This document shows positions 24,004-26,844 of a DNA stretch of 64,000 bases, piece after piece. The stretch comes from Stutzerimonas kunmingensis (GTDB lineage Bacteria; Pseudomonadota; Gammaproteobacteria; Pseudomonadales; Pseudomonadaceae). Position numbers and translations under genes: made by a program. The DNA lies in NCBI RefSeq assembly GCF_014764705.1, contig NZ_JACXXG010000004.1:124001-188000 (forward strand). The letters are read 5' to 3'. The notes beneath the pieces were generated by a model, which did no database searches, was not told where the DNA came from, and was given only the letters and a program-made list of their open reading frames with translations. Position 1 is the first letter of the stretch. Every line of letters starts with the position of its first letter.

Positions 24004-24028
24004 GCGTCCCTCCGCAGGTGCTAAACCT

Positions 24029-24078
24029 GAAAAGCTGTACAGAATTGGTTTTTTGTTAAATATTCTGTACTGCTTTTC
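24029..24078. repeat. Long inverted repeat, 17-nt arms with one mismatch
   Basis: Arms GAAAAGCTGTACAGAAT (24029-24045) and ATTCTGTACTGCTTTTC (24062-24078) flank a T-rich 16-nt loop. It lies 26 nt after the YqhA-like gene and 15 nt before the DUF6482 gene, in an AT-rich island. It may be a terminator-like hairpin, a large operator or an mRNA leader structure of the next gene. No transposase is nearby. Confidence 0.75.
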
Positions 24079-24093
24079 AAATGGGCAAGCGCC

Positions 24094-24399
24094 ATGAACC
24101 TTCAGAATCTCGCCACTCATGCCCACGCTGGGCGTATCGACGCTCTCGAGCTGATTTCGCTCGAGGGCGGCATCTATCTTCTCGACATCTACCTGCAGGG
24201 TCAGCGCCATAGTTTGATCGACGCGCGCGGCGATGTGTGGCATCTGCGGTCCGTCGAGCACGCTCGTGATCTGTTACGCGAGCTACCGGAGCTGCCCTTT
24301 TATCTGGTGCAGCAATCACCGTACGACGAGATGTGCGGTCTTGCCGAGGGCGTCCGCGAGCCGTTGCGCGTGCCGGTCGGCATGCGGTCCCAGTGGTGA
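24094..24399 (+). CDS. DUF6482-like small protein
   Basis: 101 residues, start ATG 24094 with only a weak GGGCAAG upstream. The visible core is IDALELISLEGGIYLLDIYLQGQRHSLIDARGDVWHLRSVEHARDLL, a beta-rich segment followed by a helix, and a second part PFYLVQQSPYDEMCGLAEG.REPLRVP. I match it to the DUF6482 family of pseudomonads, which has no known function. It lacks a signal peptide. The leader is dominated by the inverted repeat at 24029-24078, so expression may be controlled there. Confidence 0.8.
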   Translation: MNLQNLATHAHAGRIDALELISLEGGIYLLDIYLQGQRHSLIDARGDVWHLRSVEHARDLLRELPELPFYLVQQSPYDEMCGLAEGVREPLRVPVGMRSQW

Positions 24400-24457: not shown

Positions 24458-25993
24458 GTGAGCGTCGCCGCACTGCGCCTGGTGCTCGGCGACCAGTTGA
24501 GCTTCGAGCTCTCCGCCCTGGATGGGCTCGATCCGACGCGTGACCGGGTGCTGCTCGCTGAGGTCGCTGAAGAAGCCGGACACGTCCCGCATCACCCGCA
24601 GAAGATCATCTTTCTGTTCAGCGCCATGCGGCACTTCGCTGAGGCGTTGCGCAAACGCGGAATCACGGTGGATTACGTGACGCTCGACGATCCTACCAAC
24701 AGCGGTTCGCTGGCCGGGGAGCTGGCGCGCTTCGCCGCATGGTATCGACCTGACGAAATTCATGTCACCGAGGCCGGTGACTGGCGGGTCGAACAGGCGC
24801 TCAAGAGCAGTGGGCTTTCGATCACTTGGCATGTCGACCGCCGCTTCCTCTGCTCGCGGACCGGGTTCGCGGGTTGGGCCAGTGGCAAGCGACAGCTGCG
24901 CATGGAGTTCTTCTATCGCGAGATGCGTCGCCAAACGGGCCTTCTGCTGAATCCGGATGGCACACCGGAGGGCGGTGTATGGAATCTCGATACGGACAAC
25001 CGCAAGCCGCTGCCACGCGGATTGCACGGCCCGATCACCTTGCGCTTCGCCGCTGACGAAACCACGCGCGCAGTGCAGGCGTTGGTGAGCGCGCATTTCG
25101 CGCATCACTACGGCCGTCTGGACGGCTTCGATTACCCCGTCACCCACGCCGAGGCCGAACAGCTCTGGCTGCATTTTCTCGATTTCGGCTTGGCCGCTTT
25201 CGGTGACTACCAGGACGCCATGGCCAGCGGCGAACCGTTCCTGTTCCATGCTCGCGTCGGCGCCGCGCTCAATGTCGGCCTGCTTGACCTGCGCCGCCTG
25301 TGTGATGACGTGGACGCGGCCTACCGGCAGGGGCGAGTCGGGCTGAACGCTGCCGAGGGCTTCATTCGCCAGTTGATTGGCTGGCGTGAGTATGTGCGCG
25401 GTATCTATTGGTTGCAGATGCCTGACTATGCGCAACGCAATGTCCTCGGCAATTCCAGGCCGCTGCCGGGGTTCTACTGGACCGGGCAGACGCGCATGAA
25501 CTGCATGCGCCAGGTGATCGGGCAGACGCTGGAGCATGCTTACGCTCACCATATCCAGCGGCTGATGGTGACCGGTAATTTCGCGCTGCTCGCCGGTATC
25601 GCGCCGCCCGCGCTGTGCGATTGGTACCTGGCGGTCTATATGGATGCGTTTGACTGGGTGGAACTGCCCAACGTGCTGGGCATGGTGCTGCACGCCGACG
25701 GCGGCTACCTGGGCTCCAAGCCCTACTGTGCCAGTGGCCAGTACATCAAACGCATGTCCAACTATTGTCAGGATTGCTCTTACAAGGTGCGCGAGAGCAC
25801 GACAGACGATGCCTGCCCGTTCAACGCGTTGTACTGGCACTTTCTCATGCGCCACCGCGAGCAGTTGCAGGGTAATCCGCGGATGAGCATGGTCTATCGC
25901 AACCTCGCGCGCATGGAAGGCAGCAAGCAGCAGGCGCTGTGGGAGCGTGGCGAGTCGCTGCTGGCGCGGCTGGATGCCGAGGACGCGCTGTGA
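24458..25993 (+). CDS. Iron-sulfur (6-4) photolyase / cryptochrome (FeS-BCP, PhrB-CryB type)
   Basis: 511 residues from GTG 24458. The N-terminal Rossmann domain starts RLVLGDQLS, typical of the deoxyribodipyrimidine photolyase-related branch, followed by the helical FAD domain ([40 protein letters not shown]). Four cysteines at 349, 437, 440 and 453 ([20 protein letters not shown]) have the same spacing as the [4Fe-4S] ligands of Agrobacterium PhrB. It should repair (6-4) photoproducts with light or act as a photoreceptor. The stop overlaps the start of the DUF2256 gene. Confidence 0.92.
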
Positions 25994-26130
25994 GAAGGAA
26001 AGCGGACCTGCCATTCAAGTGCTGTGCCGCCTGCAACTTGCCGTTTGCCTGGCGAAAGAAGTGGTCGCGCTGCTGGGATGAGGTGCGTTATTGCTCCGAA
26101 CGCTGTCGGCGCAATCGGCAGGGCAGGTAA
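25990..26130 (+). CDS. DUF2256 small zinc-ribbon-like protein, coupled to the photolyase
   Basis: 46 residues, starting at GTG 25990, whose GTGA overlaps the photolyase stop TGA. The sequence has the DUF2256 signature: K-C-C[13 protein letters not shown], then [17 protein letters not shown]. Cysteines at about 11/12, 15, 28, 35 and 39 suggest a small metal-binding fold. DUF2256 proteins are often next to photolyase/cryptochrome genes, but their job is not established. A chaperone or DNA-contact role is only a guess. Confidence 0.88.
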
Positions 26131-26226: not shown

Positions 26227-26844
26227 ATGACCGACCTCAATCTATCCACTGACGAAACCCGTGTGAGCTACGGCATCGGCCGCCAGCTGGGCGACCAGCT
26301 GCGTGACAATCCCCCGCCGGGCGTCAGTCTCGATGCGGTGATCGCCGGTATTCGTGATGCGTTTGCCGGTGTTGCCAGCCAGGTCAGCCCGGAAGCGCTG
26401 AACGCCAGCTTCGCGGTGATCCGCGAGCGCATGCAGGCCGAGGCGCAGCAGAAAGCCGAAGCTGCCGCAGCAGAAGGTCGCGCCTTCCTTGTCGAGAATG
26501 CCAAGCGCGAAGGCGTTGTGGTGCTGGAGTCGGGTCTGCAATACGAAGTGCTGACGACCGGTGAGGGCGCCAAACCGTCCCGCGAGGACAGTGTGCGCAC
26601 GCATTACCACGGCACGCTGATCGACGGCAGTGTGTTCGACAGCTCCTACCAGCGTGGCCAGCCTGCCGAGTTCCCGGTAGGCGGCGTGATCGCCGGCTGG
26701 ACCGAAGCACTACAGCTGATGAATGCCGGCAGCAAGTGGCGCCTGTATGTACCGAGCGAGCTGGCCTATGGTGCTCAGGGCGTTGGCAGTATCCCGCCGC
26801 ACAGCACGCTGGTATTCGACGTCGAACTGCTGGACGTGCTCTGA
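26227..26844 (+). CDS. fklB: FKBP-type peptidyl-prolyl isomerase FklB
   Basis: 205 residues. The N-terminal helical dimerisation domain (about 1-100, STDETRVSYGIGRQLGDQL) is followed by the FKBP fold (about 108-205). It shows VRTHYHGTLIDGSVFDSSYQRGQPAEFPV, VIAGWTEALQLMNAGSKWRLYVPSELAYG and STLVFDVELLDV. Most of the binding-pocket residues (Y, F, D, W) are present. There is no signal peptide, so it is cytoplasmic like E. coli FklB. It catalyses proline isomerisation and assists folding. Confidence 0.93.
   Translation: MTDLNLSTDETRVSYGIGRQLGDQLRDNPPPGVSLDAVIAGIRDAFAGVASQVSPEALNASFAVIRERMQAEAQQKAEAAAAEGRAFLVENAKREGVVVLESGLQYEVLTTGEGAKPSREDSVRTHYHGTLIDGSVFDSSYQRGQPAEFPVGGVIAGWTEALQLMNAGSKWRLYVPSELAYGAQGVGSIPPHSTLVFDVELLDVL

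Follow-up and report, generated by a model that had tools for sequence, protein, structure and literature searches.

Photolyases are usually studied as single-protein enzymes. The closest described relatives of the enzyme considered here are the prokaryotic (6-4) photolyases of the iron-sulfur subtype (FeS-BCP, PF04244) from Agrobacterium, Caulobacter and Synechococcus; what is cited on these and other systems refers to the consulted parts of the respective reports. In Agrobacterium PhrB, the cluster cysteines are residues 350, 438, 441 and 454 (PMC3204975). His366 of PhrB is catalytic and Tyr424 is lesion-binding. The purified protein repairs the (6-4) lesion, which it binds at 13 nM when the DNA is single-stranded. 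SePhrB from Synechococcus, expressed in E. coli, has an Fe content of about 3.5 per mole, with about 4.2 acid-labile S, and shows (6-4) repair activity (PMC9178010). The (6-4) photolyase of Caulobacter carries a [4Fe-4S] cluster when expressed in E. coli BL21(DE3) (PMC12082625). A cluster-free subgroup of the prokaryotic (6-4) photolyases is already known (PMC9178010).

The second family of interest is DUF2256 (PF10013). It is listed in the TRASH superfamily (PMC4047054) and among the high-frequency Pfam domains in bacterial proteins of up to 50 aa (PMC11796252), and one paper lists PF10013 with a persistence of 0.57 in non-pathogenic versus 0.31 in pathogenic Xanthomonas (enrichment p 0.08). 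Searches of the open-licence literature for DUF2256, COG4338 and the Pfam, PIRSF and InterPro numbers retrieved no functional study, in line with the preliminary description of this DNA, which regarded the family as having no assigned function. The consulted part of the work on purified PhrB does not mention DUF2256 and reports repair, so any help from DUF2256 would be non-essential in vitro. Both families are already known; the present analysis adds how far their link extends and what it does not amount to. The role that we favour, tentatively and with a little less than even confidence, is that of a dedicated small accessory of the prokaryotic (6-4) photolyase, which would act through protein and/or DNA contact within a light-response programme.

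The photolyase gene and the overlapping DUF2256 gene

The window, that is, the whole stretch of 64,000 nucleotides analysed here, contains a photolyase gene on the + strand at 24458..25993, with a GTG start and a product of 511 aa that matches PF04244 (DPRP, E 3.1e-78). Its best PDB matches include 9hnk (E 5.4e-174) and Agrobacterium PhrB, 4dja (E 1.9e-166), and it is alike to these photolyases over nearly its full length. The four cluster cysteines that had been proposed to match those of PhrB are indeed present as Cys349 (codon 25502..25504, + strand) and Cys437, Cys440 and Cys453 (segment 25766..25816, + strand), with the PhrB set shifted by one. With this shift, taken from the cysteines, His365, Tyr423 and Trp389 of the window enzyme would correspond to His366, Tyr424 and Trp390 of PhrB. 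All three residues are invariant in an 84-row alignment, in which the window protein is counted twice. By its profile match, similarity, cysteines and His/Tyr pair, the enzyme is classified from sequence as a prokaryotic (6-4) photolyase of the iron-sulfur subtype. In contrast to the PhrB-type enzymes, its gene comes after a DUF6482 gene and overlaps a DUF2256 gene.

The DUF2256 gene (25990..26130, + strand) begins with GTG inside the photolyase gene, and its stop ends at 26130. The 46-aa product scores 70 bits, against a Pfam cut-off of 25, and covers the whole 40-position PF10013 model; it is an ordinary family member, and the single PF10013 match of the window genome in the profile search. 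The stop/start overlap between the photolyase and a 46-aa cysteine-rich protein, noticed in the preliminary description, was confirmed by eye as GTGA at 25990..25993 (+ strand), where the start of DUF2256 meets the photolyase stop (TGA, 25991-25993). A Shine-Dalgarno-like GAGGA, also read by eye, lies within the photolyase gene at 25979..25983 (+ strand), 6 nt before the GTG. Such overlapping translation would have DUF2256 made together with, and beside, the enzyme.

The unit probably starts one gene earlier, with the DUF6482 protein (24094..24399, + strand, 101 aa, PF20090, E 2.8e-23). A DUF6482 gene lies upstream of the photolyase-DUF2256 pair on the same strand in five genomes, including that of the window; the other four belong to the same family as the window genome. 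Downstream of DUF2256, the gene of an FKBP-type isomerase starts at 26227.

Sequence and predicted fold of DUF2256

The window protein contains a knuckle of CxxC (residues 12 and 15) and CSxxC (35 and 39) and the conserved residues W21, R22, W25 and W29. Among 102 sequences, the family has a median length of 51 aa and a net charge of +10 (range 6 to 15). In an alignment of 31 of these 102, hand-picked for spread, C12, C15, W21, R22, W25, W29, C35, S36 and C39 are invariant; one sequence outside the alignment (G210) has Tyr in place of W25. In a second alignment of 76 sequences (the window protein and 75 loci), the invariant residues are K4, P8, C12, C15, W21, R22, K24, W25, W29, V32, C35, S36 and C39, the invariance of the middle block being partly built in, since the loci were found via patterns containing WR[KR]KW. 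All four cysteines are invariant in both alignments.

A search of the window protein against the PDB sequences gave nothing better than E 1.1. The AlphaFold2 model (mean pLDDT 82.5, pTM 0.51) consists of a two-strand knuckle and a C-terminal helix. No Foldseek match to this model passed E 0.001. The nearest solved structures were the YacG chains of the gyrase complex 4tma (best E 0.33, probability 0.90), which occupy ranks 1, 2, 3 and 6 of 17 matches, with FCS and MYND fingers lower down. In VIA-align, Z was at most 3.6, with 3.6 for the FCS finger 2w0t and 3.2 for YacG, and chains of ribosome entries reached values similar to that of YacG. A single profile comparison of DUF2256 with 10 YacG sequences gave a probability of 93.1% (E 3.2e-7) over 28 columns, in which the cysteines and Trp21 are paired and a ten-residue stretch of DUF2256 is set against CPTCGAPVEW. 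The alignment stops after the knuckle and leaves the IDLGxW part of YacG unmatched; at E 0.001, only PF10013, and not the YacG family PF03884, was reported for the window protein.

DUF2256 resembles YacG, a small zinc protein that inhibits DNA gyrase, in its CxxC...CSxRC knuckle and in the aligned Trp that follows, but it lacks the IDLGxW tail and has an additional WRKKWxxxW block and, as a family, a net charge of about +10. The window genome encodes a separate YacG. With the TRASH treble-clef fingers (FCS, MYND and others), the model shares its matches to 2w0t and to fingers in ribosome entries, whereas DUF2256 differs from other TRASH fingers in being a stand-alone protein of 46 aa and in having a conserved Trp/Arg block of its own. 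We predict, with weak fold scores, that DUF2256 is a YacG-like treble-clef knuckle. The protein is probably zinc-binding, as a putative assignment, and the four cysteines would hold one structural zinc in this knuckle.

The likeness raises the alternative that DUF2256 is a gyrase binder, which would dock on GyrB via its knuckle tryptophan and restrain or protect gyrase during the repair of UV lesions. The YacG chains are the closest PDB matches to the model, the profile comparison points the same way, and, according to a review, a critical tryptophan mediates the contact of the YacG finger with GyrB, YacG being stress-induced and protective to cells (PMC10886550). However, the structural matches are weak, FCS finger and ribosome-entry chains reach similar Z values, and the C-terminal region by which YacG extends to GyrA is missing from DUF2256. 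A plain gyrase role would also leave the tie of DUF2256 to one photolyase family, described below, unexplained. We consider a gyrase role unlikely.

Co-occurrence of DUF2256 with (6-4) photolyases in three phyla

Genomes were searched with both profiles at a threshold of E 0.001. Among 398 Pseudomonadota, DUF2256 was found in 105 and the photolyase in 108. Both occurred in 90 genomes, DUF2256 alone in 15, the photolyase alone in 18 and neither in 275 (odds ratio 92, p 2.6e-54). The corresponding counts were 46, 4, 3 and 95 for 148 Bacteroidota (odds ratio 364, p 7.8e-30) and 10, 2, 11 and 132 for 155 Verrucomicrobiota (odds ratio 60, p 1.2e-8). Summed over the 701 genomes, DUF2256 is present in 167, the photolyase in 178 and both in 146; the photolyase thus occurs without DUF2256 in 32 of 178 genomes, and DUF2256 without such a photolyase in 21 of 167. 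These counts carry a small bias, since the sample centres G000, G398 and G401, together with G402, were chosen or reached for holding DUF2256, and they keep three DUF2256 fragments (G415, G486 and G596) and one truncated DUF2256 (G004).

Stratified tests on the 233 Pseudomonadota genomes with some photolyase, which answer the relatedness of the genomes only in part, gave Mantel-Haenszel odds ratios of 43.5 (z 8.2) within 16 families and 87 (z 4.4) within 13 genera. When the 54 Pseudomonadota genomes with the pair within 50 kb were removed, the counts became 36, 15, 18 and 275 (odds ratio 37, p 1.5e-23). The link survives the removal of the genomes with linked genes and is therefore not accounted for by co-loss of one operon. 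Of the 46 Bacteroidota genomes with both genes, 22 have them no more than 6 kb apart, always on one strand.

DUF2256 is also associated with PF03441 proteins (other photolyases and cryptochromes), which were found in 232 of the 398 Pseudomonadota. Here, both occur in 104 genomes, DUF2256 alone in 1, PF03441 alone in 128 and neither in 165 (odds ratio 134). Among Pseudomonadota without the (6-4) photolyase, a PF03441 protein is present in all 15 genomes with DUF2256, one of them (G167) counted on a weak match (E 1.1e-4), versus 110 of 275 without it (p 2e-6). Given a PF03441 protein, the (6-4) photolyase raises the odds of DUF2256 36-fold in this phylum. The partner of DUF2256 may accordingly exceed the (6-4) family alone. 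In Bacteroidota without the (6-4) photolyase, by contrast, the link between DUF2256 and PF03441 was not significant (3 of 4 versus 42 of 95, p 0.33). The PF03441 link thus differs between the two phyla. Taken together, these counts point to the (6-4) photolyase as the likely main partner of DUF2256, and in Pseudomonadota further members of the family may be second partners.

A comparison of photolyase alignment columns by the absence or presence of DUF2256 (89 versus 17 sequences) revealed no clear change, with one weak column (452) and one reversed column (145). In the control genome of Haloferax volcanii, the photolyase family is present and DUF2256 absent.

DUF2256 and the iron-sulfur cluster

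A cysteine-rich protein coupled to an iron-sulfur enzyme, as in the window, might be a maturation factor that inserts or protects the [4Fe-4S] cluster, and cluster insertion had been put forward in the preliminary description. Of the 157 Pseudomonadota and Bacteroidota genomes with such a photolyase, we checked 155 for the cysteines, leaving out G308 (a fragment) and G390. All four cysteines are present in 134 photolyases, 115 of them in genomes with DUF2256 and 19 in genomes without it, and 21 photolyases lack the set. A maturation factor is expected only where its client holds a cluster, whereas 20 of the 21 genomes with a cysteine-less photolyase carry DUF2256. In nine of these 20, the two genes are adjacent, with DUF2256 at most 160 nt upstream in eight and directly downstream in one (G519); four further genomes have them at most 6 kb apart on one strand, and in the other seven the distance is larger. 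Conversely, 19 of the 20 photolyases checked in genomes without DUF2256 keep all four cysteines.

The heterologously produced enzymes lead to the same conclusion. In a search of 14 control genomes, DUF2256 was matched in Synechococcus elongatus and Caulobacter vibrioides only, E. coli being among the non-matching genomes. According to the consulted parts of the two reports above, the photolyase clusters from two DUF2256-bearing species thus form in E. coli, without DUF2256. The comparison shows, at the level of sequence, that the occurrence of DUF2256 is independent of the photolyase cluster. Cluster insertion is contradicted, and a role in iron-sulfur maturation is largely refuted and was rejected as an explanation; we regard it as highly improbable. 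Since DUF2256 is present even with cluster-less photolyases, it is probably a repair helper rather than an iron-sulfur assembly factor.

The delivery of zinc or another metal to the photolyase, also suggested earlier, would account for four conserved cysteines in a small protein. We found no evidence for it. The consulted part of the photolyase literature mentions no zinc site, and the cysteines would fit a structural knuckle of DUF2256 itself, like that of YacG. We therefore regard metal delivery as highly improbable.

Arrangement of the gene pairs and their neighbours

The claim that DUF2256 genes recur beside photolyases holds on a larger scale, and the link reaches beyond adjacency. The 398 Pseudomonadota contain 32 adjacent same-strand pairs, in which DUF2256 comes last in 22 and first in 10; an eleventh DUF2256-first case (G142) has another gene in between. 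Overlaps were found in 15 of the 22 pairs with DUF2256 directly downstream, namely eight of 4 nt (ATGA or GTGA), five of 14 nt, one of 31 nt and one TAATG, counts that depend on our choice of start codons, as a farther start would make G202 a sixteenth. The pair appears to have been assembled repeatedly, since DUF2256 can come first or last and the overlaps are of several kinds.

Seven pairs have DUF2256 and the photolyase in one frame, five of them with a single stop in between. In genome G222 (locus L059), the frame of DUF2256 continues that of the photolyase beyond its stop TGA, and no intervening start codon was found; the junction has a run of A's, which could reflect slippage, read-through or a sequence error. 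Across 119 loci, no open reading frame fuses DUF2256 to any of five neighbour-gene profiles.

We read 106 of the 108 places with DUF2256 in Pseudomonadota, leaving out two weak second matches (G319 and G277). Within 400 nt on the same strand, 32 of these loci have the (6-4) photolyase, 18 a PF03441 gene, 5 both and 61 neither. By the same measure, 16 of 80 named loci have the (6-4) photolyase and 21 a PF03441 gene (1 has both), and 44 have neither. One genome (G237) has a second, frameshifted DUF2256 copy. Further recurrent neighbours encode a flavin amine-oxidase-like protein, a short-chain dehydrogenase and a DCC1-like thiol oxidoreductase; the CPF, SDR, FADOX and DCC profiles, derived from neighbouring genes of these loci themselves, served for detection only.

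Several loci differ in the type of photolyase. A PF03441-type photolyase lies directly upstream of DUF2256 in six alphaproteobacterial loci (L176, L178, L189, L201, L240 and L250) and in genome G313, and in relatives of G313 DUF2256 is retained among conserved housekeeping-type neighbours, with that photolyase absent from the site. For the PF03441 partners with an HFxQKLED motif, the label PhrSph98-like was considered and dropped, as the model of PhrSph98 is based on a class II photolyase. The photolyase-like proteins adjoining DUF2256 in two Verrucomicrobiales loci (L181 and L210) seem to lack the N-terminal antenna domain, as does a photolyase-like protein encoded upstream of the photolyase in G268 (L153).

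Possible light regulation

An 18-nt inverted repeat, with arms 94% complementary and 16 nt between them, lies directly upstream of the unit at 24028..24079. It encloses TGTACA-N24-TGTACT (24036-24071), upstream of DUF6482, and may, as read from the sequence, act as a LitR-type operator, as a terminator for the gene before it, or as both. LitR sites follow the consensus TGTACA-N12-TGTACA (PMC9758184). When the region upstream of the window unit was scanned for T(G/A)TACA-N12-TGTA(C/T)A, the N12 form was not found even with one mismatch allowed. A LitR operator was thus rejected for the window, where the half-sites are present at the wrong spacing (N24, not N12).

The N12 form with at most one mismatch was found in four of 23 Pseudomonas-type loci scanned. 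In three of these (L209, L214 and L231), TGTACA-N12-GGTACA precedes the photolyase match by 67 to 145 nt; in the fourth (L149), an exact TGTACA-N12-TGTACA site lies about 1.5 kb before it. Four further Pseudomonas-type loci, read by eye and with no shuffles, have TGTACA and then TGTATA-like elements shortly before the first gene. In Pseudomonas mendocina, the PME7070-cryB unit is light-induced (PMC9758184). The gene order in the window suggests, by analogy, that PME7070 is DUF6482. Light control of the DUF6482-photolyase-DUF2256 unit is plausible and unproven.

DUF2256 might then act elsewhere, in flavin, redox or RNA chemistry, and travel with the photolyase only as a member of the same light regulon. 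The recurrent flavin, dehydrogenase and thiol-oxidoreductase neighbours, together with the other photolyases and cryptochromes, are consistent with such a light-stress set, as are the light-induced unit of P. mendocina, the TGTACA elements of some Pseudomonas loci and the PF03441 protein present in every DUF2256-only Pseudomonadota genome. Against it stand the Bacteroidota, in which DUF2256 is linked to the (6-4) photolyase and not clearly to PF03441, and the recurrence of direct overlaps with the photolyase gene. Co-membership in a light regulon is the most ordinary of the rival readings, as the gyrase role is the most novel, and we hold it to be a serious contender with perhaps one chance in a few.

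A possible accessory role in photorepair

The accessory role remains the reading to which we lean, without firm confidence. It is favoured by the co-occurrence in three phyla, the two gene orders, the recurrent overlaps, the independence from the cluster, the basic charge, the conserved residues and the treble-clef-like model. The 61 of 106 loci with neither photolyase type nearby on the same strand tell against it, and so do the 32 of 178 genomes with the photolyase and no DUF2256, with Haloferax volcanii likewise, the 21 of 167 in the opposite state, the prophage-like contigs without a photolyase profile match described below, the lack of a clearly changed photolyase column and the lack of any fusion among 119 loci.

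In such a role, the face of Lys, Trp and Arg residues (W21-R22-x-K24-W25-x3-W29) and the charge of about +10 would suit docking on the photolyase and/or the lesion DNA. Once docked, DUF2256 might help the photolyase to find, bind or leave the damage in the cell, and this action would be independent of the iron-sulfur cluster. A complex on damaged DNA, the third suggestion of the preliminary description, comes near to this reading and may form.

With DUF2256 tied to (6-4) photolyases in three phyla, and the cluster cysteines not needed for this tie, attention turns away from how the cluster is assembled and towards repair itself. A conserved small partner, if true, would change how photorepair in the cell is studied, and its inclusion in assays with purified enzyme is suggested.

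Copies in prophages and plasmids

DUF2256 was found in 39 viral contigs. In two of them (L256:5998-6120 and L276:5986-6120), it stands alone between a cI-type repressor and ERF, on the strand opposite those genes, and L256 has an N-type antiterminator nearby. Including L256 itself, 14 of the 39 contigs match at least one of its three proteins (repressor, ERF and antiterminator), some as short pieces. A DUF2256-only genome (G377, L113) has its copy in the same lambdoid-type prophage setting. Two other contigs, L255 and L271, show bacterial-type neighbours, a photolyase in the one and a short-chain dehydrogenase and a DCC1-like protein in the other, and may be host DNA.

The photolyase profiles had no match in the examined sequence of the prophage-like DUF2256 contigs. 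Neither DUF2256 nor the photolyase was matched in 50,697 phage records, and one prophage DUF2256 region (161 bases) had no match in an E. coli genome collection. Because prophage-like contigs carry DUF2256 by itself, either the protein can persist without an adjacent photolyase gene or it works with the photolyase of the host.

These prophage-like copies also speak for the gyrase binder considered above. A more speculative extension is that DUF2256, as a YacG-like protein, links (6-4) photorepair to DNA topology: during the work of the photolyase, it would keep gyrase, or some other machine on the DNA, either at the UV lesions or away from them, and lambdoid phages would have taken it up to do the same in their hosts. 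We think this improbable, more so than a gyrase role as such. On plasmids, 133 records with DUF2256 were found, 57 of them from Pantoea.
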